Shown: positions 5,462-31,552 of the stretch, in pieces | Numbering within the stretch: position 1 is the first letter of the stretch | How the letters are laid out: the number at the start of each line of letters is the position of its first letter | DNA from: Thermoproteota archaeon | GTDB taxonomy: Archaea > Thermoproteota > Thermoprotei_A > EX4484-217-1 | Direction: 5' to 3' | Assembly (NCBI GenBank): GCA_029258915.1 | Contig: JAPDJU010000001.1 | Location: 1-64,000 of the forward strand | Length of the DNA: 64,000 nucleotides | Notes under the pieces: generated by a model | Seen by the model: the letters and a program-made list of their open reading frames with translations, nothing else | Told to the model about the DNA's origin: nothing | Database searches by the model: none | Position numbers and translations under genes: made by a program

Positions 5462-6661
5462 GTGTTTTTGTCTCGAAATGGTAGTTTAGTTTTCAGGCAT
5501 GCAAAGATTTACACGCCACACGAGGTAATAAATGACGACTATATTGTTGTAAGGAATGATATTATAATTGATCTTGGAAGAGAACCTGTAAAGGAAGAGT
5601 TCGGATTTAGGGAATTTAACCTTAAAGGATACATAGTAGGTCCTAGATTTATAGGTACACATATTCATGGCATTTATGGATATGACACCATGAATGGGGA
5701 GCCAAATCATTCATAAAGATATTTAAGGTATTGCCAAAATATGGTGTGACAAGTTTTATTCCAACCACAGTTTCTGCTCTCCATGATCTCATTCTTAAAG
5801 TGTTAAGAGCTTATCATAGTGCTGCTGAGAACCAGTTTCAAGGAATTGGTGCTAGGTTTCTAGGTCTTCATCTAGAGGGACCTTATATAAGTCCGGTTAA
5901 AGCTGGTGCTCAAAATAAAAAGTATATTAGAAAGCCAGATGTTAGCGAGCTAAGTGAGTATTTAAAGGCTTCTAATAATCAGATAAGGGAAATCACTATT
6001 GCGCCTGAAGTTGAGAAAGCACTGGAGCTTATAAAATACGCTGTTTCAAGAAATATAATTGTTCAAATTGGGCATACTAACGATACTTACGACTAAGCCA
6101 TGTTAGGTATGGTAGCGGGTGTTTCTAAAGCCACTCACTTATACAATGGAATGAGAGAAATACATCATAGAGAGCCAGGTGTGGTCATCGCATTACTAAC
6201 ATCACCCAATGCGTACTTAGAGTTGATCACAGACTTTATCTATGTAATGCCTGGAATGATAAAATTCACAATAGATTTTGCAGGAATACAAGGAATGGTT
6301 TTGATAACCGATGTTATATCCGCAACAGGATTACCCGATGGAGTGTATGAACTTGGCGGTTTAAAGATTAAAATTGAGAAAGGTATTTCTAGATTAATAG
6401 AGACAGGAGGCTTAGCTGGTAGCACGCTTACTTTAGATAAAGCATTTAAGAATATTATTAGACTGTGGTACAGCATAAGAGACGCCTTTATCATGGCAAG
6501 CACAAATCCATCTAAAGCTATTGGGGCCATGTACAGGGAAAAAAGGACTGCTAAAGCCAGGTCGTCAAGCTGACATCGTTGTTCTAGATAAGAACTTAAA
6601 TGTAGTGATGGCTATTGTTAGTGGAAAGATTGTTTACAGATCGTCTAATATTACTCCATAG
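5462..6661 (+). pseudogene. nagA: Second, degraded N-acetylglucosamine-6-phosphate deacetylase
   Basis: Three open stretches together cover a whole NagA. The first (5462-5716) contains GTHIHGIYGYD. A frameshift near 5700-5725 leads into the second (to 6096) with HLEGPYIS and QIGHTND. A nonsense TAA at 6097-6099 replaces a Glu-type codon. The third contains THLYNGMREIHH, TDVISATG and GGLAGSTLT. A further frameshift near 6530 precedes the expected C-terminus (KPGRQADIVVLD ... KIVYR) ending in TAG at 6659-6661. Residue identity to the intact NagA at 285-1466 looks like roughly 60%, so it is not a recent duplicate. It is more AT-rich, like the rest of the window. Confidence 0.88.
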
Positions 6662-16595: not shown

Positions 16596-16940
16596 ATGTG
16601 CGAGTTTAAGGTTGTAATAGAAGATAATGGGAGTGTGATCGCTGAAAACATAGTTAAAACATTTTATGAGGGAAAAACGCTTAAGTTAGTGAATATTTTA
16701 AATGAAACAGTTGATGTGGAAAACGCTATGATAAGCAGTGTTGATGTAGGTAAGGAGGAATTGAAAATTCTAAAACATCCTCTACTCGGAGCAGTTTTTG
16801 AATTCCTTAAAATATACTTAGAATATCAAGGTAAAAATATTTACAATCCTTTAGTTGAGGAACTATGGAATAGAGTAAAATCCTTAGGTGAGGTAATGTT
16901 AAGAGAACTGTGGGTTAAAAGTAGGGGGACTAGAAAATGA
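16596..16940 (+). CDS. cooT: CooT-family nickel-binding protein
   Basis: 114 residues beginning MCEFKVVIEDNG. The N-terminal Met-Cys and short beta-rich domain are those of CooT, a small nickel-binding protein linked to carbon monoxide dehydrogenase maturation, in which Cys2 is the metal ligand. GGTG lies eight bases before the ATG. The protein is longer than bacterial CooT (about 65-70 residues): residues after about 70 form a helical extension of unknown role. It overlaps cooC by 4 bases, placing it first in the cooT-cooC-cdhDEC transcription unit. Confidence 0.8.
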   Translation: MCEFKVVIEDNGSVIAENIVKTFYEGKTLKLVNILNETVDVENAMISSVDVGKEELKILKHPLLGAVFEFLKIYLEYQGKNIYNPLVEELWNRVKSLGEVMLRELWVKSRGTRK

Positions 16941-17716
16941 CATTTACAGTAGCTATTTCAGGTAAAGGTGGAACAGGAAAAACAATGTTAGCAGCATTAC
17001 TTGTAATTTATTTGTTAAGGAAAACAAATAGTGAGCTAAAGATTTTAGTTGTAGATGCCGATCCTAATCAGAACCTAGATAAAGTACTAGGAGCTAAAGT
17101 CGATAAGACTGTAGGCGATTTACGTGAGGAACTACTGAACATTAAGGACAAAATACCATCAGGTATTTCTAAGAAACAATACTTTGAATACATGATCCGA
17201 AACATAGTCTATGAAGGAGAATACTTTGACTTACTAGCTATGGGGAGACCTGAAGGCCCAGGATGCTACTGTTATGTTAACCATTTGCTTAGAATGATTC
17301 TAGATAAAATATCGGAGGAATACGATGTAGTTATAATGGATACCGAAGCTGGGCTTGAACATTTAAGCCGCAGAACAACAAGAGATGTTGACGCACTAAT
17401 TATAATAACTGATCCGACATCTAGAGGAATAATTACTGCTGAGAGAATAAGAAAGCTTGTTCAGGAATTAGAAACTAAGGTTCATAAAATTTATGCTGTA
17501 GGGAACAGGGTAACCTCTTCCGTCTCTAAGAAAATAGAAGAAGAACTTGTAAGACGGGGATTCGAAGTATTAGGGCTAATACCTGAAGACCCGTATATTC
17601 AGGAGCTTGATTTAGAAGGTAAGCCGTTCACCGAAATACCTGACAATTCTCCGGCATATAAGGCTATAGAGAGTATTGCTGATAAGCTTTTTTCGCACAT
17701 AATAAATACTGCATAA
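16937..17716 (+). CDS. cooC: CooC-type nickel-insertion ATPase for CODH/ACS
   Basis: A 259-residue MinD/CooC-family P-loop ATPase. The deviant Walker A GKGGTGKT is at the N-terminus, VDADPNQNLD gives the second Asp motif, and VIMDTEAGLEHLSRRT carries the Walker B/switch region typical of CooC. A GCYCYVNHLL segment supplies the paired cysteines (C-x-C) that bind nickel or zinc at the dimer interface. It uses ATP hydrolysis to load nickel into CODH or the ACS A-cluster. It overlaps cooT and precedes cdhD by 13 bases. Confidence 0.92.
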   Translation: MTFTVAISGKGGTGKTMLAALLVIYLLRKTNSELKILVVDADPNQNLDKVLGAKVDKTVGDLREELLNIKDKIPSGISKKQYFEYMIRNIVYEGEYFDLLAMGRPEGPGCYCYVNHLLRMILDKISEEYDVVIMDTEAGLEHLSRRTTRDVDALIIITDPTSRGIITAERIRKLVQELETKVHKIYAVGNRVTSSVSKKIEEELVRRGFEVLGLIPEDPYIQELDLEGKPFTEIPDNSPAYKAIESIADKLFSHIINTA

Positions 17717-17729
17717 TGGTGTTTCTAAC

Positions 17730-18710
17730 ATGGGGCGGTGGGCAGGTAGAATTGTTGAAGTTAAAATAGGTGCTACTAAAGCTGAGGGCGGAAGTAGAGA
17801 CAAAGTAATAGTGGTCGGCGGAGAAACGGATTTACCCCTCTTTGGCTCTAAAGAGGATTTACCTAATCCTCCAATTATTTCTATGGATATTTTTGACTGC
17901 AAAATACCTTTACCTAAAGTTTTGAAGACGCCTTTTATCGAAGTTTTAGAAGATCCCGCTGAATGGGCTAAACTATGTGTTAACAAGTATGGAGCTGATA
18001 TGATAAGTCTCCACCTGGTAAGTACAGATCCTAATGTATTAGATAGAAGCCCTAAGGAAGCCGCTAAAACCGTGGAGGATGTTTTACAAGCAGTTAAAGT
18101 ACCTCTCATAATTGGTGGTTCAGGTAACCCTGAAAAAGACCCAAAAGTTTTCGAAGAAGTTGCAAAGGTAACTGAAGGTGAAAGATGCTTATTGTCCTCA
18201 GCTACGCTAGATGTTTATAAGGAAATAGCTGCTGCAGCGCTCATTTATGGACATAACGTTGTAGCTTTCACACCTGTCGACGTTAACTTAGCAAAACATC
18301 TTAACAGGTTACTTATGAATATGGGGCTTCCACCCGATAAAATAGTTATGGATCCAACAGCAGCATCACTAGGGTACGGTCATGAATACAGCTTCTCAGT
18401 TATTGAGAGAATAAGACTAGGCGGTTTACAGGGCGATAGAGACCTTCAAATGCCTATACTTGTCGGAGTAACTAACGCTTGGGGTGCTAGGGAAGCGTGG
18501 TTAAAAGATCCATCGCTGGGACCTAGAGAATATAGAGGACCTATTTGGGAGGCCGTAACAGGTATAACATATATGCTTGCAGGAGCCGACATACTAATGA
18601 TGATGCACCCGATTGCTGTTAGCTTAGTTAAACGTGTAATTAATAATGTTTTTCGAGGTGAAAAAACGTCTATAAAAGAAGTTTATGAATGGTTAAAGGA
18701 GGCGATGTAG
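17730..18710 (+). CDS. cdhD: Acetyl-CoA decarbonylase/synthase delta subunit (corrinoid protein, small)
   Basis: 326 residues, a TIM-barrel corrinoid-binding subunit. It heterodimerises with CdhE to carry the methyl group between the methyl-pterin carrier and acetyl-CoA synthase. Recognisable stretches are ISMDIFDCKIPLP, WAKLCVNKYGADMISLHLVSTDP, PLIIGGSGNPEKDP, MDPTAASLGYGHEYSFSVIE and a late MMMHPIAVSLVK. GGTG lies eight bases before the ATG. Length and motifs fit archaeal CdhD without the long extra domains of methanogen versions. The stop TAG at 18708-18710 is followed immediately by the TTG of cdhE. Confidence 0.93.
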   Translation: MGRWAGRIVEVKIGATKAEGGSRDKVIVVGGETDLPLFGSKEDLPNPPIISMDIFDCKIPLPKVLKTPFIEVLEDPAEWAKLCVNKYGADMISLHLVSTDPNVLDRSPKEAAKTVEDVLQAVKVPLIIGGSGNPEKDPKVFEEVAKVTEGERCLLSSATLDVYKEIAAAALIYGHNVVAFTPVDVNLAKHLNRLLMNMGLPPDKIVMDPTAASLGYGHEYSFSVIERIRLGGLQGDRDLQMPILVGVTNAWGAREAWLKDPSLGPREYRGPIWEAVTGITYMLAGADILMMMHPIAVSLVKRVINNVFRGEKTSIKEVYEWLKEAM

Positions 18711-20078
18711 TTGAGAAAACTAACACCCATGCAAATATACATGCTACTACCTAAAACTAATTGCGGAGAATGTGGATTCCCAACATGTCTTGCATTCGCA
18801 TTTAATGTTGCTTCAGGTAAAGCCAACGTATTTGCCTGCCCCTACTTAAGTGATGAAGCTAAACGTAAGTTAAGTGAAGCATTAGCACCACCTATAAAGC
18901 TTGTAACTATTGGTGTAGGAAGTGAAGCTATTAAAATAGGTGGAGAAAGGGTAATACACAGACATGAAGACAAGTTTTATAATCCTACAGCAATAGCTTT
19001 TGCAATTAGCGATCTACTTAGTGAAGAAGAGTTAAGAAAGCAAATAGCAGCTATAGAAAATACTAAGCTTGAGAGATTAGAAGAAATCTTAAAACCCGAC
19101 CTTATAGCTTTAAAGGGGAGCTCAGAAAACCCTGAACGTTTTGCTAAAGCCGTGGAAACTATTTTAGAAACCACATCGCTTCCAATAATACTTTGCAGTT
19201 TTAACCCTAAAGTTATGGAGGAAGGACTTAAACTATGTGGTTCTAAAAGACCCCTAATATATGCTGCTACTAAAGACAATTTAGAGTCAATGGCTAAACT
19301 AGCTATAGAATACGATTGCCCACTTGCAATATATGAGCCTGGAAGGTTAGAGTCATTAGCGGAACTAGTTAAGAAAGCAAGAAACATGGGTGTTAAGGAC
19401 TTAGTTTTAGACGTAGGTTTCAATGATTTAAGAGAAACACTAGAAAAACTAGTGCTACTAAGACATTTAGCTATCGGAGAGGAAAAACGCGAATACGGAT
19501 ACCCTACAATAACTTTCCCAAGCTTAGCAACCACAGAATCCGATGCTTTAGCTGATTTCTGGGAGGTTACTGTTGCAACATCATTTATGATAAGATACGC
19601 TAGCATCATAGTTTTAAACAGCATTAAGCCATGGAGAATATTGCCCCTACTAATACTTAGACAGGGAATATTTAGAGATCCAAGAATACATCCACGGGTT
19701 AAACCAGGGCTTTACGCTATAGGAAACGTAAACGAGCACTCTCCATGTTTAGTTACATCGAACTATGCCCTCACATACTTTACAGTTAAATCGGATATTG
19801 AAGCTTCAAAAGTACCATCATACCTTCTAGTGGTAGATACCGGTGGACTATCTGTTGCTTCGGCTTTTGCTGGAGGGAAATTTACTGCTGAGAAAATAGC
19901 TGAAGCTATTGAAGAATATAAGGTTAAAGAAAAGGTTAAGCATAGAACAATGATAATACCCGGATTAACAGCTAAAATCAGCGGTAAACTAGAGGAGCTA
20001 ACAAATTGGAAAGTTATAGTAGGACCTAGAGACTCCTCAGAACTAAGAGTGTTTCTCAGAAAAATATCTACCACTTAA
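18711..20078 (+). CDS. cdhE: Acetyl-CoA decarbonylase/synthase gamma subunit (corrinoid/Fe-S protein, large)
   Basis: 455 residues. The N-terminal [4Fe-4S] motif is KTNCGECGFPTCLAFAF followed by FACPYL, the four-Cys site that keeps cobalt reduced. A TIM barrel follows, and the C-terminal part (from about residue 330) is the cobamide-binding domain with LLVVDTGGLSVASAFAGGK. It is the methyl carrier of the Wood-Ljungdahl pathway. The TTG start is supported by GGAGG eight bases upstream and by abutting cdhD without a gap. Confidence 0.94.
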   Translation: MRKLTPMQIYMLLPKTNCGECGFPTCLAFAFNVASGKANVFACPYLSDEAKRKLSEALAPPIKLVTIGVGSEAIKIGGERVIHRHEDKFYNPTAIAFAISDLLSEEELRKQIAAIENTKLERLEEILKPDLIALKGSSENPERFAKAVETILETTSLPIILCSFNPKVMEEGLKLCGSKRPLIYAATKDNLESMAKLAIEYDCPLAIYEPGRLESLAELVKKARNMGVKDLVLDVGFNDLRETLEKLVLLRHLAIGEEKREYGYPTITFPSLATTESDALADFWEVTVATSFMIRYASIIVLNSIKPWRILPLLILRQGIFRDPRIHPRVKPGLYAIGNVNEHSPCLVTSNYALTYFTVKSDIEASKVPSYLLVVDTGGLSVASAFAGGKFTAEKIAEAIEEYKVKEKVKHRTMIIPGLTAKISGKLEELTNWKVIVGPRDSSELRVFLRKISTT

Positions 20079-20178
20079 AAATTTTACGTTTTTAAAAAAA
20101 TCATATAGTATTTTAAGAAATACTTAAAAGCTCAATTCCCTAATTCATAGTTTGAGTGTAAAAGATAGAGGTTATTTT

Positions 20179-22353
20179 ATGTCTGAAGTAGTAGTTAAAC
20201 TTGCACTAAGTGGTTTTAAGAAAGCTCTTGAACTAACAAGGAAAATTACTGACGAAGCAATTAAGGAGCTAGGAAGCGACCAAACCGTTGAAGTTCTCGA
20301 CACTGCATATAATGTTCCATCATACCATATTCTCACAGGGAAGAAAATAGAGAAATTAGGCGACATACCTAAAATCCTTGACGAACTCGAAGAGTCGGTT
20401 TATAGAAAATGTATCCTCCATAAAATGTATTTAGGTAAAGAACCGACAATCGAGAATGCGTTAGAAGCCGGTTTAGCAACATTAATTCTTGCTGACATTA
20501 TTGAAGTAATTAAATATGTTAAAACGCCTAAACCATATAAACCACCATACAGCGGCTTCATAAGTGATTCTCAAATAAGAGCTTTAGGTGTTTCGCTGGC
20601 TAGCGGAAAGATTCCAGGAATAGTTGTTGTTTTAGGTAAAGCTCCAAGCGATGAAGCTGCAGGTAAAATGGGGAAGGAAATTCAAGGCCTTGGAATGTTA
20701 GGCTTACTTGTTGGTGCCGTAGTGGAGCAAATGCGGAGAGCCGGAGTTAGAGTGGGAGCAGAATATAACCTTATTCCTTTAGGCGATACTATAACTTCAG
20801 CAGTACATGCTGCTAGCGTAGCTTTAAGAGTATCTACAATATTTGGAAGTTTAAAGCCTGGAGATCGGGAGAAAATAAGAGAGTATATTAAGGAAAGGGT
20901 TCCAGCATTCGTCATAGCTCTTGGACCATTAGATGACATAACTGTTGCTGCCGGAGCAGGTGTTATAGCTATAGGACTTCCTGTACTTACAGACCAGCCT
21001 GTTCCCGAAATACCAAATGCTCTTGTTCCTGTTAGGCCTGAGGAAGCTATTTCAAAAGGATGTGAGCTACGTAATATAAAGATTAAACCTGTGAAACTTG
21101 AAATTCCAATAGCTTATGGCCCTGTATTTGAAGGTAAAGCTATAAGAAAACATGACATGTACGTAGAATTTGGAGGAGGCCGTTCACCAGCTTTTGAATT
21201 AGTCGTAACGAAGCCTCTTAGAGAAGTAAAGGATGGAAAAATAGAGGTTATAGGTCCTGAAATAGATGAAATGAAGGAAGGTAAAGCCCACCCATTAGGT
21301 ATTGTAGTCTACATTGCAGGTAAAAAGATGAAAAAAGAGTACGAACCGATAATTGAAAGGAGAATCCATGAGTACATAAACTACGGTGAAGACACATGGC
21401 ATATAGGTAGTAGAGATATATGCTGGATTAGAATAAGCAAGGAAGGATACAAGAAAGGATTTAAGATAAGACATTTCGGCGTAATCCTATACACCATGAT
21501 TAAAAAGGACTTCTCAGCAATAGTAGACAAGGTTCAAGTAAAACTAATTACAGATAAAGATGAAGTTCTTAAAGCACGCGAGGAAGCACGGAAATTCTAT
21601 GCTGAAAGAGACGCTAGAATAGCCGCGTTAACCGATGAAAGTGTAGATGTCTTCTACTCATGCACATTATGCCAGTCATTTGCACCTAACCATGTCTGTA
21701 TCATAACACCTGAAAGACCAGGCCTATGTGGTGCTGTATACTACTTAGATGCTAAAGCCAGCCATGAACTTCAACCCGAAGGACCAAACCAACCTGTACC
21801 TAAAGGTAAATGTCTAGATCCTGTGAAGGGAGAATGGGAAGGAGTAAACAAGTTTGTATATGAAGCCTCCCACCATGCAACGAAGAGATATCACCTTTAC
21901 AGTGCACTTACATATCCAATAACCAGCTGCGGATGTTTCGAATGTGTTCTAATAGCCTCCTTTGAAACCAATGGCTTCATAATAATTCCGAGAGAATATG
22001 TAGGCGACAACCCAATAGGGCTTAGATTTAGCACACTTGCAGGTATGATAGGGGGAGGAAAACAGGCATCCGGTACTGTAGGAATATGTAAACGCTACAT
22101 AGTTTCACGAAAGTTCTTCAAAGCAGATGGCGGTATTAAACGTGTTGTGTGGATGCCTAAATCACTTAAGGAAGAGCTTAAGGAAGATATAATAAAGCGT
22201 GGTAAGGAAGAAGGAATACCTGATCTTTACGATAAAATAGCTGACGAAACCGTTGCAAAAACGATGGATGAGCTATTAGAGTATTTAAAGAAAGTAGATC
22301 ATCCTGCACTTAAAATGACGCCTCTAGAGAAGTTAATGGAATATCCCGGGTAA
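20179..22353 (+). CDS. cdhC: Acetyl-CoA synthase, catalytic beta subunit (full-length, AcsB-like)
   Basis: It condenses methyl, CO and CoA into acetyl-CoA on the nickel-iron-sulfur A-cluster. I prefer ATG 20179 (GAGG six bases upstream) over TTG 20152. The A-cluster ligands are visible: FYSCTLCQSFAPNHVC, a later GLCG, and SCGCFEC with the Cys-Gly-Cys that binds the distal nickel. At about 724 residues it is as long as bacterial AcsB. Methanogen CdhC is about 470 residues and lacks the N-terminal CODH-binding domain, whereas here some 290 residues precede the LGxxDDITVAAGAG region. It ends 20 bases from the convergent mvhA. No CODH catalytic subunit is in the window. Confidence 0.93.
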   Translation: MSEVVVKLALSGFKKALELTRKITDEAIKELGSDQTVEVLDTAYNVPSYHILTGKKIEKLGDIPKILDELEESVYRKCILHKMYLGKEPTIENALEAGLATLILADIIEVIKYVKTPKPYKPPYSGFISDSQIRALGVSLASGKIPGIVVVLGKAPSDEAAGKMGKEIQGLGMLGLLVGAVVEQMRRAGVRVGAEYNLIPLGDTITSAVHAASVALRVSTIFGSLKPGDREKIREYIKERVPAFVIALGPLDDITVAAGAGVIAIGLPVLTDQPVPEIPNALVPVRPEEAISKGCELRNIKIKPVKLEIPIAYGPVFEGKAIRKHDMYVEFGGGRSPAFELVVTKPLREVKDGKIEVIGPEIDEMKEGKAHPLGIVVYIAGKKMKKEYEPIIERRIHEYINYGEDTWHIGSRDICWIRISKEGYKKGFKIRHFGVILYTMIKKDFSAIVDKVQVKLITDKDEVLKAREEARKFYAERDARIAALTDESVDVFYSCTLCQSFAPNHVCIITPERPGLCGAVYYLDAKASHELQPEGPNQPVPKGKCLDPVKGEWEGVNKFVYEASHHATKRYHLYSALTYPITSCGCFECVLIASFETNGFIIIPREYVGDNPIGLRFSTLAGMIGGGKQASGTVGICKRYIVSRKFFKADGGIKRVVWMPKSLKEELKEDIIKRGKEEGIPDLYDKIADETVAKTMDELLEYLKKVDHPALKMTPLEKLMEYPG

Positions 22354-22373: not shown

Positions 22374-23705
22374 TTAACTAACTATTCTAAGTTTAACTAA
22401 GTGTGTAGCACAGGATATGCATGGATCATATGCTCTAACTACCATTTCTAGCCTTTGCTCAATTGTAGTTAGTTTTTCACCCTTTGAGAGGAGATCGCTA
22501 GCTACCCTAATTAACTCTCTTTCTAAAGGTGGAATATTCTGCTGAGTTGCTACTATTAGATTAACTTTCCTAAGTAAGCCTTTATCATCAATTTCATAGT
22601 GGTGTATAAGTACTCCTCTAGGTGCTTCAACAATTCCTACACCAATACCTGCCTTGGGTTTAACATGAGTTCTAATATTTTTGCTAAGTATTTCTTCATC
22701 TTCAAGTATGTTCAAAGCTTTTTCAATAGAAGCTATAATTTCCACCGCCCTAGCTAAATTATATGCGCCAACATTGTGGAAGGGTTTTCCTACCATTTTT
22801 CTTAACATCGCTAAGTAATTATCGGCAATTGGTGTTCCAAACTTCTCAGCCACATTTGTTCTGGCAAGTGTTCCAACCCTATATTTTTCACCATTAACTC
22901 TTAAGTAGGGGTGTTTTACGAAAGAATAACGTACGGAGTCTTCAGCTATGTATTTTAAATAGTCTAAGCCTTTAAAGGAAGCAATAACATCTCCTTTAGG
23001 GCTCATTATGTGCAATTCACCATCATATGTTTCATGGAGACCATGACTAACTAAGCCCATGTAGTACGTTAGATCTTCAGGATATGTGCTGAGTAGTTTG
23101 TTTTTCTCATAAATATCGAAAATGGTGTCAACTAATTCCATAGCGTTTTTTAATACTACTTCACCTTTCTTCATTAAAGTTTCCCTATCCTCACGTGGAA
23201 GAGGTTTAGACATACCGCCTGGCACTATGGTTGATGGGTGAATAGGCCTTCCACCCACGATTTCCGTTATTTCTTGACCATATTTCCTAATAACTATGGC
23301 CTTCTTAAATAGTTGAGGATATTTTTCAGCAATACCTATAACACCTTCTCCGGGGCATAGCATGTCGGGTAATGCTAGTAAAGCTAGGTGTAAGGTGTGA
23401 CTATGTATGTAGCCTCCAGCATGCAATAGTTTTCTAAGTTTTATCGCAGCCTCAGGAGGTTTTACGTCCCAAGCGTCTTCAACGGCTTTAACCGATGCTA
23501 GACCATGTGCTACGTAGCATATGCCACATATCCTCTCAGCTAATCTTACAGCTTCTTCTGCAGGTTTATTTTCCATAAATTTTTCAAATAGTCTTGGAGG
23601 CTCTAAAATGTTTATTTGAAGATTTTTAACCCTATTTTCCTCTACGTCTATCGTAATCGCCATATGGCCTTCTATTCTAGTAACTGGCTTTATCTGTACC
23701 CTCAC
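22374..23705 (-). CDS. mvhA: F420-non-reducing [NiFe] hydrogenase, large subunit
   Basis: 443 residues. The four nickel-ligand cysteines are present: RICGIC (C60, C63) near the N-terminus and DPCISC (C429, C432) near the C-terminus, followed by ATH and an 8-residue tail that a maturation protease should remove after His435. IKPVTRIEGH at the start is the usual large-subunit signature. It oxidises H2 in the cytoplasm and passes electrons to MvhG. It overlaps mvhG by 4 bases and is the last gene of the hdrA2-hdrA1-mvhD-mvhG-mvhA operon. HypA at 11663-12502 would help its maturation. Confidence 0.94.
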   Translation of the reverse strand: MRVQIKPVTRIEGHMAITIDVEENRVKNLQINILEPPRLFEKFMENKPAEEAVRLAERICGICYVAHGLASVKAVEDAWDVKPPEAAIKLRKLLHAGGYIHSHTLHLALLALPDMLCPGEGVIGIAEKYPQLFKKAIVIRKYGQEITEIVGGRPIHPSTIVPGGMSKPLPREDRETLMKKGEVVLKNAMELVDTIFDIYEKNKLLSTYPEDLTYYMGLVSHGLHETYDGELHIMSPKGDVIASFKGLDYLKYIAEDSVRYSFVKHPYLRVNGEKYRVGTLARTNVAEKFGTPIADNYLAMLRKMVGKPFHNVGAYNLARAVEIIASIEKALNILEDEEILSKNIRTHVKPKAGIGVGIVEAPRGVLIHHYEIDDKGLLRKVNLIVATQQNIPPLERELIRVASDLLSKGEKLTTIEQRLEMVVRAYDPCISCATHLVKLRIVS

Positions 23706-24586
23706 TTCTTCTTCACCTTGGTTTTCCTAATTAAGTCTTCAATAAGAGAACTTGCGAAAGAGTATCTGTAAAAATATGCACTATAGGTTCTAAGGTTAAA
23801 ATTTTTAATTGTATTGTAGGCTATGGTGGCTAAGGTATTTAACATGGCTGCTCCTTGGTCCAGTATTTTTGATGCAGGTCCTCTACATCCATCGCACGGT
23901 ATTCCGGCGCGTGGACATTTAGCTCCACATCCGGCTCTAGTTACTGGTCCCATGCAGAAGTATCCTTGCTCTAAGAGGCAAGTACTGGGTTTTGGAGGCT
24001 CAAATATTCTCCTTAACTTGCTAGGTTTTTTCCTTGGGGGGCCCAAAGGACATTCATCGCATACCGTTTTAGTTGGCAGAGTAGGCTTCTCACCTTTAGC
24101 TAGTGAGAGTATTATCTCCATTATCTCCTTAGACTCAGGAGGGCATCCTGGTATTTGAAAATCTACTTTAACATATCTAAATATAGGTGAAACCCCAACT
24201 ACTTCAGGTACGTTTTCCCTTGGAATTACACCTTTAATTACTGTTGGTGTTTTCTCATAAACGTATTTCAGCGATGAGTATAGGTCGAAAAGATTCGACA
24301 ATCCAGGAATTCCTCCGAAGCAAGCGCATGAACCCAGAGCTACTAAGATTTTGGCTTTTCTCCTAGCCTCCTTTAAAACTTCAACATCGTGAGATGTTCT
24401 AACACCTCCCTCAACGAGAACTATGTCCACGCTATCCGGTATTCTCCTCACATCTAAAACCATGTATGAGTGTACCAGCTCTACATTTTGAAGCAGCTGA
24501 AGAATATTTTCATGCATATCTAAAAACGCTACATGACATCCTCCATCAGACATTAAACTAACTATAGCTAGTTTCTTTTTCTTCAT
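23702..24586 (-). CDS. mvhG: F420-non-reducing [NiFe] hydrogenase, small subunit
   Basis: 294 residues with the Fe-S cluster ligands of the MvhG type: SDGGCHVAFLD (proximal cluster), ALGSCACFGGIPG, IPGCPPESKEI, and the C-terminal clusters in VCDECPLGPP, GYFCMGPVTRAGCGAKCPRAG and PCDGCRGP. There is no twin-arginine signal, so the enzyme is cytoplasmic. It wires the active site of MvhA to the [2Fe-2S] protein MvhD. It directly follows mvhD and overlaps mvhA, so subunit production is coupled. Confidence 0.94.
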   Translation of the reverse strand: MKKKKLAIVSLMSDGGCHVAFLDMHENILQLLQNVELVHSYMVLDVRRIPDSVDIVLVEGGVRTSHDVEVLKEARRKAKILVALGSCACFGGIPGLSNLFDLYSSLKYVYEKTPTVIKGVIPRENVPEVVGVSPIFRYVKVDFQIPGCPPESKEIMEIILSLAKGEKPTLPTKTVCDECPLGPPRKKPSKLRRIFEPPKPSTCLLEQGYFCMGPVTRAGCGAKCPRAGIPCDGCRGPASKILDQGAAMLNTLATIAYNTIKNFNLRTYSAYFYRYSFASSLIEDLIRKTKVKKK

Positions 24587-25009
24587 TTAAACACCCCCCT
24601 TAGACTTTAATGGATTAGGCCCTATTTCCCTAATTTTCATGTAAAAATTATTCATGCACTCCAATATTTTACCTGCTTCGCAAAAACCTACTAAATGCAT
24701 TTTTAACCTTTCACCACCAAGCCCTATGATGTCAAGAGTCTTTTTTAGCTTCTTCACCCTAAGCTGAGCTCTTAGGTTCCCATCTACGTAGTTGCATCCT
24801 CCTTTCAAGCAACCAAATATAATTACTCCATCCGCTCCATTACTAAATGCTTGAAGTATATGTGTAGAACTTATTCTACCAGAGCATGGTACTTTAATTA
24901 CTCTAATACTTTCCAAATAGCTTACTTTCCTCATACTAGCAACATCTATAGCTCTATAAGCTGAGTTTTCGCAGAGAAACGCTAATATTAGCGGCTTAAA
25001 CTTCTTCAA
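24587..25009 (-). CDS. mvhD: MvhD, [2Fe-2S] adaptor between hydrogenase and HdrA
   Basis: 140 residues, the normal size. Conserved cysteines lie in AFLCENSAYRAID, IKVPCSGRISSTHILQAF, FGCLKGGCNYVDGN and VGFCEAGKI. It relays electrons from the hydrogenase small subunit to HdrA flavin. It overlaps hdrA1 by 4 bases and mvhG follows directly. A second MvhD-like domain is fused to the C-terminus of the neighbouring HdrA2, so the cluster encodes two such adaptors. Confidence 0.93.
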   Translation of the reverse strand: MKKFKPLILAFLCENSAYRAIDVASMRKVSYLESIRVIKVPCSGRISSTHILQAFSNGADGVIIFGCLKGGCNYVDGNLRAQLRVKKLKKTLDIIGLGGERLKMHLVGFCEAGKILECMNNFYMKIREIGPNPLKSKGGV

Positions 25010-26970
25010 CTACTTAACACCCCCTTAATAATTTCACTTAACTGCTCATCCCTATAATTTACTAGCTGTATTGCTTCAGCAGGGCACTCAGCAGCACATA
25101 TACCGCACTCCTTACACATGACTTCTACAACATTAGATATGCCCTGAACCGAGACTTTAGCTGCATTAAATGGGCATGAAATTTCGCATACCCTACACCC
25201 TATACAGTAGTTTTCATTAACAACAGCTTTGCTTAACCTAACCCTTACCTCGCCTTTACCCAATACTTTAGCTACCTTAGACACGACCGCCAATGCCTGG
25301 TTTATCGTTTCTGATATGTCTGTAGGTCCTTGTGCCGCACCACATACGAAAATGCCGCTAACGTTTGTTTCAAGTGGAGCAAACTTAGGATGTGTTGAAG
25401 CGAAAAACTTGTCCCTCCTAAGACTTACGTCTAAAACCTCAGCTAGTTCAATAGCGTTAGCTGAAGGTATGAAACCTGTTGATAAAACTATTAAGTCAGC
25501 TAGTAAACATTTTCTTTCACTAAAAGACTCCAACTTTATTCTAAACCTTTTTAATTCAGGATCCCATTTAACATCAATCACTTCTCCTTTAACAAAATTC
25601 ACTCCTAACCTCTCACATTCCATAAGATATTTTTCGTCATACTTCCCCATGAGCCTAATGTCCTTATAAACTATTGTTACATCTATTTCAGGATGTCTCT
25701 CCTTAATACTTCTAGCGTGTTTTAAGGCTATGGAGCAACATATGCTAGAACAGTACGGATTTATTTTTGGGTCTCTTGATCCTACGCATTGTATCATAAC
25801 TATTTTTAGCGGCTTCTTACCATCAGAAACCCTAACCAACCTACCACCAGTAGGGCCGCTTAAATCAAGCATCCTAGCCAACATTAGCTGGGTAATAACA
25901 TCGGGATATATGCCGTAACCGTACATGTTTTTAGGGTTAAATTCTCTAAACCCTGTAGTTAAGATAATTGCTCCTACGTTTAACTCTATTCTCTCAAGTT
26001 TCTCGTTAAGATTTATGGCGTTGAACGGGCATACTTTTTCACATTCTCCACACTTACTACAGTTTTCTTCATCTATAATGTACGTGCGAGGTAATATGTG
26101 AGGAGAGGGCATGTATATTGCTTTTCTTTTTGAGAGACCAAAATCGAATTCGTTAGATACTTCTATTGGACATACTTCTTCACATACTCCGCAAGCTACA
26201 CATTTTTCGAAGTCAACGTAGGTAGGGTTCTTTCTTACGATTACCTTGAAATTACCTAAATATCCTTCTACATGTTCAACTATAGACTTTGTAAATATCT
26301 TAGTTCTGGGATTAGTTAGTACTAATTCTACGTACTTAAATAAGCATTTACGATGCCTCTCAAGCTTATAAGGCACCATACATACACCGCAGTCTTCTGT
26401 CGGGAAAACTGTTCCTAACTGTAATCCCTTACCACCTAGTGTAGCTTCTTTTTCAACAAGGTAAACTTGAAAGCCATAGTCTGCAAGTTTTAACGCAGCA
26501 GTAATACCTGCTATACCTCCTCCTACTACTAGAACAGAGAGCTTAGCTGGAACAGTTACTTCACCTATTTCCTCCAAAGTTTTCACCCTCAATATTGCTG
26601 TTTTAACCATGTTCTTGGCTTTCTCTGTTGCTTTAGAGGGGTTATCAGGGTAAGGCCATGCACATTGCTCCCTTATACTAACTATTTCAAGCATACATGG
26701 GTTAACTCCTTCCTCACTCAATATTCTCTTAAACGTGATTTCATGGAGTCTAGGCGAACACGCAGCAATTACAATGCGGTTTAGCTTATGCTCTCTAATG
26801 GCTTTTTTAAGAGCTTCCTGTCCTTCACTAAAACATAGGAAGTCGTGTTCTTCAACGTAAACTACGTTAGGTATTTTCTTAACATGTTCTTTTAAACTAT
26901 CTAAGTCTACAATGTTAGATATTTCGCCTCCACACTTACATATGAAAACGCCTATTCTAGCCTCGCTCAT
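25006..26970 (-). CDS. hdrA: HdrA, FAD- and Fe-S-containing electron-bifurcating subunit (copy 1)
   Basis: 654 residues. An N-terminal FICKCGG domain comes first. The Rossmann FAD site VLVVGGGIAGITAALKLADYG follows, with the inserted TEDCGVCMVP cysteines and two ferredoxin-type clusters (CVACGVCEEVCP, CSKCGECEKVCP). The thioredoxin-reductase-like second half contains QCVGSRDP, and two more clusters at the C-terminus (CIGCRVCEISCP, CKECGICAAECP). HdrA flavin performs electron bifurcation, sending one electron towards ferredoxin. It lies between hdrA2 and mvhD. No HdrB or HdrC is encoded here, so the second acceptor is probably not heterodisulfide. Confidence 0.93.
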   Translation of the reverse strand: MSEARIGVFICKCGGEISNIVDLDSLKEHVKKIPNVVYVEEHDFLCFSEGQEALKKAIREHKLNRIVIAACSPRLHEITFKRILSEEGVNPCMLEIVSIREQCAWPYPDNPSKATEKAKNMVKTAILRVKTLEEIGEVTVPAKLSVLVVGGGIAGITAALKLADYGFQVYLVEKEATLGGKGLQLGTVFPTEDCGVCMVPYKLERHRKCLFKYVELVLTNPRTKIFTKSIVEHVEGYLGNFKVIVRKNPTYVDFEKCVACGVCEEVCPIEVSNEFDFGLSKRKAIYMPSPHILPRTYIIDEENCSKCGECEKVCPFNAINLNEKLERIELNVGAIILTTGFREFNPKNMYGYGIYPDVITQLMLARMLDLSGPTGGRLVRVSDGKKPLKIVMIQCVGSRDPKINPYCSSICCSIALKHARSIKERHPEIDVTIVYKDIRLMGKYDEKYLMECERLGVNFVKGEVIDVKWDPELKRFRIKLESFSERKCLLADLIVLSTGFIPSANAIELAEVLDVSLRRDKFFASTHPKFAPLETNVSGIFVCGAAQGPTDISETINQALAVVSKVAKVLGKGEVRVRLSKAVVNENYCIGCRVCEISCPFNAAKVSVQGISNVVEVMCKECGICAAECPAEAIQLVNYRDEQLSEIIKGVLSS

Positions 26971-26974
26971 AGCA

Positions 26975-29302
26975 TCACCTGCTTGAGGTCTTAACGGGGA
27001 TTTTACATGTTACTTCAAGAAAACGCTTGGTCATAGTAGCTGGAGCGTTTACTATGTTAACTTTTTCAGGGAATAAACCTAGTTCCTCAAAAACCCTTCT
27101 AATAAGTTCTACCTTATACTTAGCAGTTTTAGCTCCTAATTCGAAATGGCATCTTTCTAGTGGGCAGCCTACTAGAAGAACGCCGTCTGCACCATAATTA
27201 AGTGCTTCGAGAATGTGAGTTATCGAAATTATTCCAAGACATGGAATAGTTATTGGAATTATTTCAGACATGTATTTTTCATGGTAGAACCCCAATGCAT
27301 CCATTAGTGTGTGCCCGCATTCTTCACAGCACAATGCAATAACTACTCTTTTCCTTAAAGCCTTAGCTTCATCTATAATTGCTTTAATTTGCCTAAGCAA
27401 CAACTCATTAGTGTTATTAACTATGTTAATAGCATTATTAGGGCAAACGCTAGCACATGTTCCACAGCCTTGGCATAATAGCTCATCTACTGATGGACCT
27501 TTCTCAGTAAGTGTTAGTGCATTATATGGGCATGAAATAACACATAGGCCGCATTTAGCACAGAATTCTTCGTCTAAAATAGGTGGTGTAAGTTTTTTCT
27601 CTAAATAGCTAATTACATAGAGTGCGGCTAATGTAGCTGCTGCACTTGCTTGAACAAGTGTTTCTGAAATGTTTTTAGGTCCTTGACACGTACCGCATAT
27701 GAAAATACCCGGTACTTTAGTTTCTATATTACTTACTTTCTCATCTAGTTCTTTAAAGAACCCATATTCATCTAATTCTATGTTTAGGATTTCAGCTAGT
27801 TTCTTAGAATTTTCTCTAGGAACAAGAGCGCAAGATAGTACTACTAAGTCTGCAGGTATTGTACCTGTTTTTCCAAGAGAATCTACGTATTTTACGAGCA
27901 AACTCCCAGACTTATCCTCATATACCTCAACTACATCACCTTTAATGAATTTCACGCCAAGCTCATCCCTAGCTTGAATGTAAAGCTCCTCGAACCTCCC
28001 ATAAGTCCTTATATCCTTATATAATATTGTAATTTCAGCTTCAGGAATATATTCTGTTTTAATTAGTATAGCGTTTTTAATGGCTTCTGTACAGCAGTAT
28101 TTTGAACAATAGGGGTTAGTATCGGGGTCTCTTGATCCTACGCATTGTATCATAACTATTTTTAGCGGCTTCTTACCATCAGAAACCCTAACCAACCTAC
28201 CACCAGTAGGACCTAGGGGGTCCATTAGCCTCTCTAATTGTAATTGCGTTATAATATCCTTGTACTTACCATAGCCGTACTTAGGTATAGTTGATGGGTT
28301 AAACTCTTCAGAACCTGTAGCGACAATAATTGCCCCTACTTCTACTTCTACTTCCTTCGCTTTCTGGCTGAAATCTATGGCATTGTAAGGGCAGACTTCT
28401 TCACAAATATTACACGAGTTCTCGGTAAAGTGTAGACAATGATTAGGGTCTATGATGTACCTGGGAGGTGTAACGTATGGAAGAGGAATGTATATTGCTT
28501 TACGCTTACTTAAACCTCTATCCCATTCGTTAAGAACTAATTGAGGACACTTCTCAGAACATAATCCACAGTTGGTGCACCTATCATAGTTAATATATTT
28601 GGGTTTCTTAATTATCTTAACCTTGAAGCCCCAAGGGTACCTTTTAACATCAGATATTTCACAGTACGTAAGTAGTTCAATATTAGGATTCTCATAAACC
28701 TCTAAAGGTTTTGAACTTTTAACACAAATAGCACAGTTACATTCGTTAATAGAAAACGTCCTATGTAGTAAGGAGGCTAAACCGCCTATAGCTGGGCTGG
28801 ACTCCACTAAATACACTTTAAAACCTTGGCTAGCTAAATCTAATGATGCTTGAATACCGGCGGGACCTCCTCCAATAACTAATACTGCTTCCTTTCTCTT
28901 TACCTTCAACACCTTTTCTTTGCCTAGGGACTTCGCCTTCTCTATTGCAGCAGCTATCATAAGTTTTGCTTTATCGGTAGCTTCCTTTAAACTACCACAT
29001 ACCCAGGCACAGTGTTCCCTAATATTCACATACTCTACTTTTAGGTTAACACCTAGACCACTGGCTGCTTTTTCAAGCACTGGTGAACATATGTACTTTG
29101 AACATGCAATAACTAAGAGAACTTCTGCATTTGACTTTACGTGTTCTTGAACAGCCTTTCTGGCCTCGAAAGTACATAGAGCAGAGTATTTTGTTACTCT
29201 AAGAACATCCTTATATTGTTTAACATATTTCTCAAGTTCGTTAAAGTCAATGTACTTCTCAAGAACCCCGCCACAAGTACAGAAAATAACGTTAATGCTT
29301 AT
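26975..29302 (-). CDS. hdrA: HdrA fused to a C-terminal MvhD domain (copy 2), probable ATA start
   Basis: The conserved HdrA beginning (VIFCTCGGVLEKY) is encoded upstream of the first standard start (GTG 29080, inside the domain). The frame stays open back to a TAG at about 29326-29328 with no ATG, GTG or TTG. An ATA at 29302-29300, seven bases after GGTG (29313-29310), gives a family-like N-terminus, M-S-I-N-V-I-F-C. From there the protein has 775 residues: FAD site VLVIGGGPAGIQASLDLA, CNCAICVK insertion, clusters CTNCGLCSEKCP and CNICEEVCP, QCVGSRDP, then CAKCGLCVISCP and CQGCGTCASVCP. A final MvhD domain (CCEECGHTL, IPCLGIISITH, GCPLERC) follows. A one-base error is the alternative to ATA initiation. 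Confidence 0.88.
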   Translation of the reverse strand: MSINVIFCTCGGVLEKYIDFNELEKYVKQYKDVLRVTKYSALCTFEARKAVQEHVKSNAEVLLVIACSKYICSPVLEKAASGLGVNLKVEYVNIREHCAWVCGSLKEATDKAKLMIAAAIEKAKSLGKEKVLKVKRKEAVLVIGGGPAGIQASLDLASQGFKVYLVESSPAIGGLASLLHRTFSINECNCAICVKSSKPLEVYENPNIELLTYCEISDVKRYPWGFKVKIIKKPKYINYDRCTNCGLCSEKCPQLVLNEWDRGLSKRKAIYIPLPYVTPPRYIIDPNHCLHFTENSCNICEEVCPYNAIDFSQKAKEVEVEVGAIIVATGSEEFNPSTIPKYGYGKYKDIITQLQLERLMDPLGPTGGRLVRVSDGKKPLKIVMIQCVGSRDPDTNPYCSKYCCTEAIKNAILIKTEYIPEAEITILYKDIRTYGRFEELYIQARDELGVKFIKGDVVEVYEDKSGSLLVKYVDSLGKTGTIPADLVVLSCALVPRENSKKLAEILNIELDEYGFFKELDEKVSNIETKVPGIFICGTCQGPKNISETLVQASAAATLAALYVISYLEKKLTPPILDEEFCAKCGLCVISCPYNALTLTEKGPSVDELLCQGCGTCASVCPNNAINIVNNTNELLLRQIKAIIDEAKALRKRVVIALCCEECGHTLMDALGFYHEKYMSEIIPITIPCLGIISITHILEALNYGADGVLLVGCPLERCHFELGAKTAKYKVELIRRVFEELGLFPEKVNIVNAPATMTKRFLEVTCKIPVKTSSR

Positions 29303-29428
29303 GTTTAAACACCTCGAAGGTACTCGCTATTTACCATGCGAATAAAAGTTTTATACTAATTTGTTTTTAACTTTAGAACAGCAATAATAATTTTTTCCTT
29401 AGTAAAAAATATGTGAGAGGAAGTTGAA
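29303..29428. promoter_or_regulatory. Divergent promoter region between hdrA2 and metV
   Basis: The 126-base spacer separates the leftward hdrA2 operon from the rightward metV-metF. It contains a perfect inverted repeat, ATAAAA-g-TTTTAT (29342-29354). Read leftwards, this offers a TATA-like element about 25-30 bases before a short hdrA2 leader. The symmetry could serve both directions or bind a regulator; this is inference only. Confidence 0.4.
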
Positions 29429-30097
29429 TTGATTGTTCTGAAGCAAAAACCCCTCGACTGGATTCTTGAAGCTGCTAGAAGCTATGATAACATATTGATA
29501 GTTGGATGTAATGGCTGCTCAGGCATATACCAGGTAGGCGGTGAAAAACAGGTTAAGAACTTAAAAATGGTTTTGGAAATGGCTCTTAAAATAAGATTTG
29601 GGAAGAATATTAATGTAGAAACATGTACTCTTCTAAGGCAGTGTGACAGAGACTTAGTCGCATCTTCCCTAAGACCGCTAGTTAAAAGAATTAAGGAGAA
29701 TGGAGCTATAATCTCGCTAGCATGCGGCGCCGGAGTTCAAACAGTTTCCAACGTCTTTCCCAAAGTCGTTGTGATACCTGGTTGCGATACTTTATTCGTA
29801 GGAATGCGAACTAAGGAATTAGGCGAATTTAACGAGCTATGTAGAGCATGTGGTGAATGCATACTTTTTGAGACTGGAGGCATATGCCCATTAACTAGAT
29901 GCGCAAAAGGCTTGCTTAACGGCCCATGCGGAGGTATGCGCGAAGGTAAATGTGAAGTAGACCCCACAAGAGATTGTGCATGGGCTTTAATCTACGAGAG
30001 ACTTAAAGCTCAAGGAAGATTAGATTTGTTTTTAAAATTCCGTCCACCACGAGACCATAGGGTATCTGCAAGCCCACGTGTGTGGCGAGGCGAGTAG
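29429..30097 (+). CDS. metV: MetV, zinc/Fe-S partner of methylene-pterin reductase
   Basis: 222 residues from a TTG start. It has the MetV/MTHFR C-terminal-domain signature: an N-terminal VGCNGCSGI, CGAGVQTVS, CRACGECILFETGGICPLTRCAKGLLN read across a run of cysteines, then GPCGGMREGKCEV and DCAWALIYERL. In acetogens MetV binds MetF and links it to a flavin/Fe-S electron input module. It overlaps the frame of metF slightly and diverges from hdrA2, supporting a joint MetFV-HdrA-Mvh assembly. Strong family match; the electron route is inferred from context. Confidence 0.88.
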   Translation: MIVLKQKPLDWILEAARSYDNILIVGCNGCSGIYQVGGEKQVKNLKMVLEMALKIRFGKNINVETCTLLRQCDRDLVASSLRPLVKRIKENGAIISLACGAGVQTVSNVFPKVVVIPGCDTLFVGMRTKELGEFNELCRACGECILFETGGICPLTRCAKGLLNGPCGGMREGKCEVDPTRDCAWALIYERLKAQGRLDLFLKFRPPRDHRVSASPRVWRGE

Positions 30098-30099
30098 CT

Positions 30100-31011
30100 G
30101 TGAGAAAGATCTATAGTAAGCTTATGGAGAATCTTTTAAGCGGAAAATTCGTTTACACTGCTGAAATAGAAGCTGGAAAAACAACTAATCTAGAGGAAAT
30201 AGTTGAAAAAGGTAAAATGCTGAAAAACTATGTAACTGCAATAAACGTTACAGATAATCCAGGGGCATGCGCCCACATGAATCCTCTAATTCCCTCATAT
30301 GTTATTCAGAGAGATGTAGGTGTAGAATCTGTTTACCAGATAACATGTAGAGACCGCAATAGACTCGCTATAATTTCAGATCTTTTAGCAGCTGCCGCTT
30401 TGGGTATAAGAAACGTTTTAGCAATAACGGGGGATCATGTAATTTTCGGCGATAATCCGGAAGCCAAGCCTGTTTTTGACTTAGATTCAGCAACATTAGT
30501 GTATCTTATTAGAAAAATGGTGGATGAAGGTGTTGATTTAGCAGGAAACAAAATTGAAGGTGAAGTTAAGTTTCATGTAGGTATAGCAGCTAACCCTAAT
30601 GCGGTGCCCTTAGAACTTGAAATACTTAAGATAGCACGTAAAGTGAAGTTAGGAATAGACTTTATTCAGACACAATGCGTTTTCGACATCGATGTAGCTA
30701 AAGAATTCCTTAGGGAAGTAAGAAAGTTCAATATTCCAGTGTTAATTGGAATATGTCCTGTAAGATCTATTGGAATGATGAAATGGTATATTAAGGAATG
30801 TCCAGGAGGAATCAAAATACCTGCAGACATGCAAGAAAGACTCATAGCCGCAAGGAAACAGAAAGGCAAAAAAGCGGTCTTAGAGAAGAGCATAGAAATC
30901 TCTGCAGAATTAATAAAAGAGTTAAGGAAAACTACAAACGCTGCTGGAGTACATATAATGGCCATAGGGTTTGAACATGTCATTCCTAAAATAATAGAGC
31001 ATTCTAGTTAA
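30100..31011 (+). CDS. metF: Methylenetetrahydrofolate (or tetrahydromethanopterin) reductase, MetF family
   Basis: Start GTG 30100 is chosen because GAGG sits about ten bases upstream and the metV stop is just before it; GTG 30082 is an alternative. The protein has about 303 residues, a TIM barrel with bound FAD: TAEIEAGK (catalytic Glu region), NVTDNPGACAHMNPL, QITCRDRNRLAIISDLLAAA, LAITGDHV, HVGIAANPNA, IDFIQTQCVFD and PVLIGICPV. It reduces the methylene-C1 carrier to methyl for transfer to CdhDE. Archaea with the classical pathway use unrelated F420-dependent Mer; a MetF homologue beside MetV, HdrA and Mvh suggests an H2-driven alternative. The pterin used is not determined. Confidence 0.9.
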   Translation: MRKIYSKLMENLLSGKFVYTAEIEAGKTTNLEEIVEKGKMLKNYVTAINVTDNPGACAHMNPLIPSYVIQRDVGVESVYQITCRDRNRLAIISDLLAAAALGIRNVLAITGDHVIFGDNPEAKPVFDLDSATLVYLIRKMVDEGVDLAGNKIEGEVKFHVGIAANPNAVPLELEILKIARKVKLGIDFIQTQCVFDIDVAKEFLREVRKFNIPVLIGICPVRSIGMMKWYIKECPGGIKIPADMQERLIAARKQKGKKAVLEKSIEISAELIKELRKTTNAAGVHIMAIGFEHVIPKIIEHSS

Positions 31012-31279: not shown

Positions 31280-31552
31280 TTATCCCTTCATCTTTATAGC
31301 CTTTCTTCTGCCGTAAGCATCGCCGAGTCTCCCGCCAATAAGATAGCCTAGTGCACCAAATAATGCAGCAAAAGAGTATATAAAACCTATATTGACTTCT
31401 AGGCCGAAGGAATTAAGATAGTATGGTATAAACAACATCCATAAAGTGTTAGTTGAAGTTCCAATAATTGAAATAACAGCCTGAATGTCTACATTGCCTC
31501 TGAATAAGGCACGAAGCTCGTTAAAAGCTATAATGATCTTCACATGAGACAT
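31280..31552 (-). pseudogene. N-terminal fragment of an MFS transporter
   Basis: 90 codons covering the first two membrane helices of a major facilitator protein and ending just after motif A (GGRLGDAYGRRKAI). The remaining ten helices are missing, because a stop follows directly and no continuation is seen in other frames. It is a truncated remnant and cannot transport. Confidence 0.65.

Follow-up and report, generated by a model that had tools for sequence, protein, structure and literature searches.

A hydrogenase-HdrA-MetVF gene cluster without HdrBC in a Thermoproteota archaeon: a candidate H2-linked methylene-tetrahydromethanopterin reductase

The window analysed here is a 64,000-nucleotide stretch of Thermoproteota archaeon DNA (contig JAPDJU010000001.1, positions 1-64,000), and the cluster under study (22374-31011) encodes an Mvh-type [NiFe] hydrogenase, two HdrA proteins and the reductase pair MetV-MetF (MetVF). 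This cluster is, on balance, best explained as a cytosolic H2-linked methylene-tetrahydromethanopterin (methylene-H4MPT) reductase. Coupling between hydrogenase and MetVF is well supported by comparative gene order and protein phylogeny, and H4MPT is very probably the pterin substrate; electron bifurcation is permitted by the cluster rather than demonstrated, and is proposed tentatively. In acetogens it has long been asked how electrons from H2 reach the final reduction of the methyl branch and whether the cell conserves energy at that point. Among relatives that use H4MPT, the same MetVF pair is accompanied by a hydrogenase of its own, in some genomes together with HdrA and in others in its absence.

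Gene content and conservation of the cluster

22374-23705, minus strand: mvhA, group 3c-type [NiFe] hydrogenase large subunit, 443 aa (PF00374, 2e-39)
23702-24586, minus strand: mvhG, hydrogenase small subunit with 12 Cys (PF01058, 3e-30; NF045875 VhuG, 287 bits)
24587-25009, minus strand: mvhD, stand-alone [2Fe-2S] connector (PF02662, 7e-40; aligned with 5odc_D and its counterparts in relatives G230 and G219)
25006-26970, minus strand: hdrA1, 654 aa (NF040770, 710 bits; aligned to 5odc_A)
26975-29302, minus strand: hdrA2-mvhD fusion, 775 aa (NF040770, 631 bits; PF02662, 2e-26)
29303-29428, no strand: divergent intergenic region between hdrA2-mvhD and metV, 126 bp, read directly from the sequence
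29429-30097, plus strand: metV, Fe-S/Zn partner of MetF, with 14 Cys and an NGPCGG motif (PF12225, 1e-34)
30082-31011, plus strand: metF, methylene-pterin reductase, in a frame that overlaps metV (PF02219, 2e-36)

All seven genes lie where an original prediction, made from the sequence, had placed them. Open reading frames and domain matches confirm its layout of one minus-strand operon (mvhA, mvhG, mvhD, hdrA1 and the hdrA2-mvhD fusion, from 29302 to 22374) divergent from metV-metF, with minus-strand neighbours that overlap by up to 4 bp or leave gaps within 4 bp. As it had also claimed, hdrB and hdrC are absent from the cluster. The closest solved relative of MvhA is the MvhA of the methanogen HdrABC-MvhAGD complex (5odc_F, 4e-105) and both Ni-binding CxxC pairs are intact (ERICGIC and DPCISC), by which the hydrogenase looks active on paper. 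MetVF-type reductase features are present, with the NGPCGG motif and Cys-rich region in MetV (PF12225) and the barrel in MetF (PF02219). The start of the fusion was corrected: its frame is open upstream of a GTG at 29080 as far as an ATA at 29302, with no in-frame ATG, GTG or TTG upstream of that GTG, and this ATA is matched by the Met of the G230 protein, the closest homologue, which gives 775 aa; ATA is the probable start codon.

The arrangement is conserved in related genomes. Of 300 phylum genomes searched, 44 carry MetV (PF12225), 35 of them with full-length matches. The divergent layout of the window recurs in G230, where most proteins are 65-83% identical (MetV 78%, MetF 83%, stand-alone MvhD 55%), and G219 carries all seven genes as a single co-directional operon (hdrA2-mvhD, hdrA1, mvhD, mvhG, mvhA, metV, metF) in which no gap exceeds 19 bp; a true Mer (427 bits) lies nearby. 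Two further relatives, G027 (L065, 14973-18795) and G043 (L066, 9516-13341), have an operon metV-metF-mvhG-mvhA. In a search across 398 genomes, the five MvhA proteins nearest to that of the window, itself counted, are exactly the five that are directly linked to metVF (412-985 bits; the next scores 321 bits), and they form a clade with support of 97/93. The HdrA1 proteins of the window, G230 and G219 likewise form a clade (100/100), as do their HdrA2-MvhD fusions (100/99). Chance neighbourhood is ruled out by the G219 operon and by these clade-specific MvhA and HdrA proteins; the H2-linked MetVF of the original prediction draws its support from the same operons and MvhA clade.

Other genomes place different partners beside metVF. 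In G154, G276 and G059 the divergent neighbour is a tandem HdrA-HdrA-MvhD protein (HdrC and HdrB were read beside it in G154), a Moorella-like set; in G118 and G243 metVF lies divergent from an FrhB-like protein and a fusion of GltD, ferredoxin and MvhD; and in family f12 metVF is without these partners nearby, in genomes without Mch. Input modules beside metVF were seen at L048 (12802-17827), L050 (5763-10777) and L072 (4949-10968), where the types are tandem HdrA-MvhD with HdrCB, a GltD-ferredoxin-MvhD fusion with FrhB, and ferredoxin-MvhD with mvhAG nearby. Because these neighbourhoods vary, MetVF reads as a constant catalytic pair fitted with varied electron inputs.

Pterin substrate, Mer and HdrB across the genome

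H4MPT is very probably the substrate because the genome has its own ftr-mtd-fwd-mch genes, the G230 cluster lies by mch-fwd-mtd, and Mer or Mtd stands beside metVF in relatives. The H4MPT branch of the window's genome (1.6 Mb, archaeal, 99.66% complete) is otherwise complete on contig C7 (ftr, mtd, fwdDB, fwdA, fwdC, mch and mptN). In G230 metVF is followed directly by an FrhB-like gene, mptN, mch, fwdC, fwdA, fwdDB and mtd. No Mer scores above cut-off in the window's genome, where the best matches reach 106.6 against 276 bits (NF002619) and 93.3 against 348.7 bits (TIGR03555). This absence, with the branch otherwise complete, supports the proposal of the original prediction that MetVF replaces Mer, a replacement that is supported in G230, G027 and G043 too. 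An intact Mer elsewhere in the genome was not found: two of its three luciferase-family proteins best match F420_Rv1855c-type models, and the remaining one, although Mer-like, is divergent and scores far below cut-off. This 297-aa protein (L077, 6962-7855, contig C2; 106.6 against 276 bits) may be a Mer that has degenerated or taken on another role. Across the phylum, 28 of the 62 genomes that hold both Mch and acetyl-CoA synthase carry neither Mer above cut-off nor MetV.

The genome has one MvhA-type large subunit (E <= 1e-60) and two HdrA proteins, both in this cluster; no second mvh copy with linked hdrBC was found in it. Its single CCG-domain gene encodes a 292-aa HdrB-like protein on contig C2 (TIGR03288, 233 bits against a cut-off of 345) and sits in a group-4 hydrogenase operon with NuoC, Ni-ligand NuoD, NuoH, NuoI, NuoB and a truncated antiporter subunit. 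That operon (L003, 7303-13602) is without an evident HdrC and adjoins hypD, hypE and hypF. No HdrC was seen at the cluster, as judged by gene order, no genome-wide HdrC profile having been run. G230, which is 98% complete and whose only HdrA proteins are the two of its cluster, lacks a CCG (HdrB-type) domain genome-wide, so those two HdrA cannot have an HdrB partner. G043 also lacks a CCG domain genome-wide. With 99.66% of the window's genome present and no CCG domain in G230, an assembly gap is ruled out as the reason for the missing HdrBC.

HdrA residues, energetics and competing explanations

Residues that bear on electron transfer are numbered as in 5odc_A. Both HdrA proteins of the window keep the N-domain Cys, Cys197, K409, the ligands of the inserted and C-terminal ferredoxin clusters and those of the TrxR-domain cluster. 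E356 positions K409 and has been proposed as a marker of bifurcating HdrA (PMC12054007); HdrA2 has both residues in the window and in G230. HdrA1 of the window, G230 and G219 shares a conserved insertion after Cys197, ERHRKC, with an extra Cys, which almost none of the other HdrA in the comparison has. The second CxxC Cys of the stand-alone MvhD is replaced by Ser in the window (CENS) and by Ala in G230; the fused MvhD domain, C-terminal in hdrA2-mvhD, keeps CCxxC. In tandem HdrA of anaerobic methanotrophic (ANME) archaea, complementary loss of the N-domain and Cys197 suggested heterodimers (PMC9012536). That loss is not seen here, both window HdrA having kept both features; HdrA1-HdrA2 pairing, although not indicated by this test, is plausible.

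The complex that we infer, and its electron route, would run as follows. MvhAG would oxidise H2 and pass electrons through MvhD and the HdrA1/HdrA2-MvhD core to MetV, the Fe-S clusters of which would reduce the MetF flavin, and MetF would convert methylene-H4MPT to methyl-H4MPT for acetyl-CoA synthase. MetVF would thereby occupy the place of HdrBC in the methanogen complex and perform the reaction of Mer. The flavin adenine dinucleotide of HdrA2 may pass a further pair of electrons to ferredoxin, most likely at high H2, with the reverse at low H2. Biochemical precedent exists in Sporomusa ovata, in which pull-downs showed binding of MetV to HdrA, of MetF to HdrA and HdrB, and of MvhD to MetF, and washed membranes passed electrons from H2 to methylene-tetrahydrofolate (PMC9430772). 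Free MetVF of Clostridium ljungdahlii takes electrons from reduced ferredoxin (PMC8515935), which makes MetV a credible point of electron entry by analogy. A fold search of the PDB with modelled MetV (mean predicted local distance difference test score 72) gave no match below 0.001, and thus no evidence of a likeness to HdrB or MvhD.

In its fullest form the proposal is an HdrBC-free, H2-driven bifurcating methylene-H4MPT reductase, in which MetVF replaces HdrBC on an asymmetric HdrA1/HdrA2 core with one bifurcating flavin, and the family is pared down in relatives to the four subunits MvhGA-MetVF, which would use H2 to reduce the pterin without F420, ferredoxin, HdrA or MvhD; we put it forward as a possibility held with some doubt. 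If true, archaea without Mer would gain a defined H2-dependent, F420-independent route, and HdrA would not be confined to HdrBC as its partner. Smaller and larger versions of the cluster among relatives make the wiring testable, and the window compared with G027 and G043 is a natural test of the contribution of HdrA.

Several observations weigh against this proposal in whole or in part. In the window metVF diverges from the mvh-hdrA operon, so that the two are not co-transcribed. MetF departs partly from the hydrogenase clade: that of G219 falls among MetF linked to other kinds of input, in a clade almost confined to Mch-bearing genomes, a pattern that fits the swapping of input modules around MetVF. 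Avoidance between Mer and MetV is weak among 74 Mch-bearing genomes (odds ratio 0.23, Fisher p 0.07, in a test that is not independent of phylogeny and is not used as proof); 35 of the 74 have neither gene, and two genomes of the phylum have both. Carbon monoxide dehydrogenase/acetyl-CoA synthase (CODH/ACS) was not found in G230, and feeding acetyl-CoA synthesis is not a universal role of the complex. HdrA and MvhD-type domains are absent genome-wide from G027 and G043, the metV-metF-mvhG-mvhA operons of which indicate that HdrA is unneeded for the linkage of hydrogenase to MetVF; such an operon may encode a minimal H2:methylene-pterin reductase. HdrA1 has Ala in place of E356 in each of the three loci, with K409 present in that of the window, and HdrA2 of G219 has lost E356 and one TrxR-cluster Cys, so the bifurcation signature is not conserved. 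At most one flavin of each HdrA pair looks bifurcating. The splitting of electrons by HdrA, which the original prediction had stated, is not supported in that form and is only permitted; of its stacked or dual-flavin complex, the dual-flavin bifurcator is unlikely because HdrA1 has lost E356 in all three loci, and the pairing of the two HdrA stands as plausible.

Energetics add a further point against bifurcation. The methylene-H4MPT couple has a potential of about -320 mV. Reported potentials are -414 mV for H2 and -200 mV for methylene-tetrahydrofolate (methylene-H4F) (PMC5861303), and ferredoxin is near -500 mV (PMC3685469). Bifurcation is calculated to yield about -25 kJ/mol with H4F and ferredoxin near -500 mV, and with H4MPT about -1.5 kJ/mol at -500 mV, near zero, or about -17 kJ/mol with ferredoxin at -420 mV; each tenfold drop in H2 costs about 11 kJ/mol. 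With energetics so marginal, bifurcation would need either high H2 or a ferredoxin of less negative potential, and the complex is expected to reverse easily; for this reason our confidence in bifurcation is no higher.

These points bear most directly on a non-bifurcating enzyme, in which MvhAG would deliver electrons to MetVF without an energetic split (H2 + methylene-H4MPT to methyl-H4MPT) and HdrA1/HdrA2-MvhD would be a mere wire or a ferredoxin side branch. The G027 and G043 operons, in genomes without HdrA and MvhD and with MvhA of the same clade, favour it, as do the loss of E356 from HdrA1 everywhere and from G219 HdrA2 and the little energy that the H4MPT couple offers to split; we nevertheless judge it rather unlikely, since it would leave idle the full bifurcation signature and clusters in HdrA2 of the window and G230. 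Reverse operation, in which methyl-H4MPT and reduced ferredoxin are co-oxidised to H2 (confurcation), as in methyl oxidation or syntrophic growth, is unlikely: a calculated standard energy near zero would let H2 set the direction, G230 has the complex and an H4MPT oxidation branch without CODH/ACS, and the window's genome has three membrane [NiFe] hydrogenase-type operons, but the cluster adjoins ACS genes in a genome with CODH, which fits methyl synthesis. A separate H2:ferredoxin system with another acceptor (a disulfide via the membrane-hydrogenase HdrB, or F420 via an FrhB protein), with metVF a mere neighbour using free ferredoxin, could appeal to the ferredoxin-dependent MetVF of Clostridium ljungdahlii (PMC8515935), to the many phylum genomes that carry metVF without Mvh nearby and to the one HdrB-like gene of the window's genome, but is improbable against the seven-gene G219 operon, the metVF-mvhGA operons of G027 and G043, the clade-specific MvhA and a G230 genome without HdrB.

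Relation to known complexes and genomic surroundings

MetVF with HdrABC and MvhD is already known from acetogens. The cluster resembles the Hdr-type (6S) MetFV-HdrABC-MvhD reductase in its adjacent metV-metF (29429-31011) and in having hdrA and mvhD in the locus (24587-29302), whereas the cluster of the acetogen complex includes HdrB and HdrC but no hydrogenase of its own, and that complex works with NADH or a membrane chain and with H4F rather than H4MPT. To the methanogen MvhAGD-HdrABC complex (5odc) it is linked by homologues of MvhA (4e-105), MvhG, MvhD and HdrA (HdrA1, 2e-176) with the same ligand sets, except that the stand-alone MvhD is short of one CxxC Cys that the fused one keeps; it differs in lacking HdrBC, in carrying a further HdrA with an MvhD domain of its own, and in linkage to MetVF instead of heterodisulfide chemistry. 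The absence of HdrBC, a feature of both known complexes, makes the cluster a variant rather than a member, and it is not a Moorella-type complex, which also has two HdrA units but has them fused, not separate as in the window.

Among archaea, MetVF-HdrA-MvhD clusters and a Mer/MetF switch have been noted (PMC9012536). These clusters are alike in that MetVF lies beside HdrA and MvhD and, as has been proposed, substitutes for Mer with H4MPT as its substrate, but no hydrogenase is reported there, and their tandem HdrA show the complementary loss of N-domain and Cys197, a heterodimer feature of ANME HdrA5/6 and 12/13 that the window HdrA do not share. The 2S-type MetVF of Clostridium ljungdahlii (PMC8515935) belongs to the same MetV and MetF families and uses free reduced ferredoxin without Hdr or hydrogenase subunits. 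The operon that holds the only HdrB-like gene of the window's genome resembles the Ehd/Ehe/Ehg membrane hydrogenases with linked HdrB (PMC9723716); it is a separate locus and complex and, by gene order, not the partner of HdrA1/HdrA2. In the open-licence papers searched we found no description of MetVF with a dedicated MvhAG hydrogenase and without HdrBC, nor of an HdrA-free metVF-mvhGA operon.

An acetyl-CoA synthase cluster adjoins the mvh-hdrA/metVF cluster in the window:

16937-17716, plus strand: cooC-type ATPase of the acetyl-CoA synthase cluster (open reading frame and sequence class; blastp homologues in relatives)
17730-18710, plus strand: acsD/cdhD corrinoid protein subunit (TIGR00381, 439 bits)
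18711-20078, plus strand: acsC/cdhE corrinoid protein subunit (NF003195, 590 bits)
20152-22353, plus strand: acetyl-CoA synthase, bacterial-like AcsB with a CODH-type N-domain (NF007078, 965 bits; PF19436, PF03598, PF18537)

A CooS-type CODH lies on contig C2 beside a ferredoxin-like subunit and a membrane hydrogenase operon with Mrp-type subunits. There (L238, 7433-18413) a CooF-like ferredoxin, CooS and CooC are followed by the membrane [NiFe] hydrogenase operon, which suggests hydrogen-producing CO oxidation, a possible internal source of H2 for the Mvh complex. A group-4 hydrogenase set with MnhF/MnhG-like genes is found near ftr-mtd-fwd-mch (L057, 15622-19554, contig C7). Broken-looking reading frames occur elsewhere in the window: a glmS-like gene in two pieces (2956-4772), a second nagA-like copy in two pieces (5731-6573) and a transporter fragment (31280-31552).

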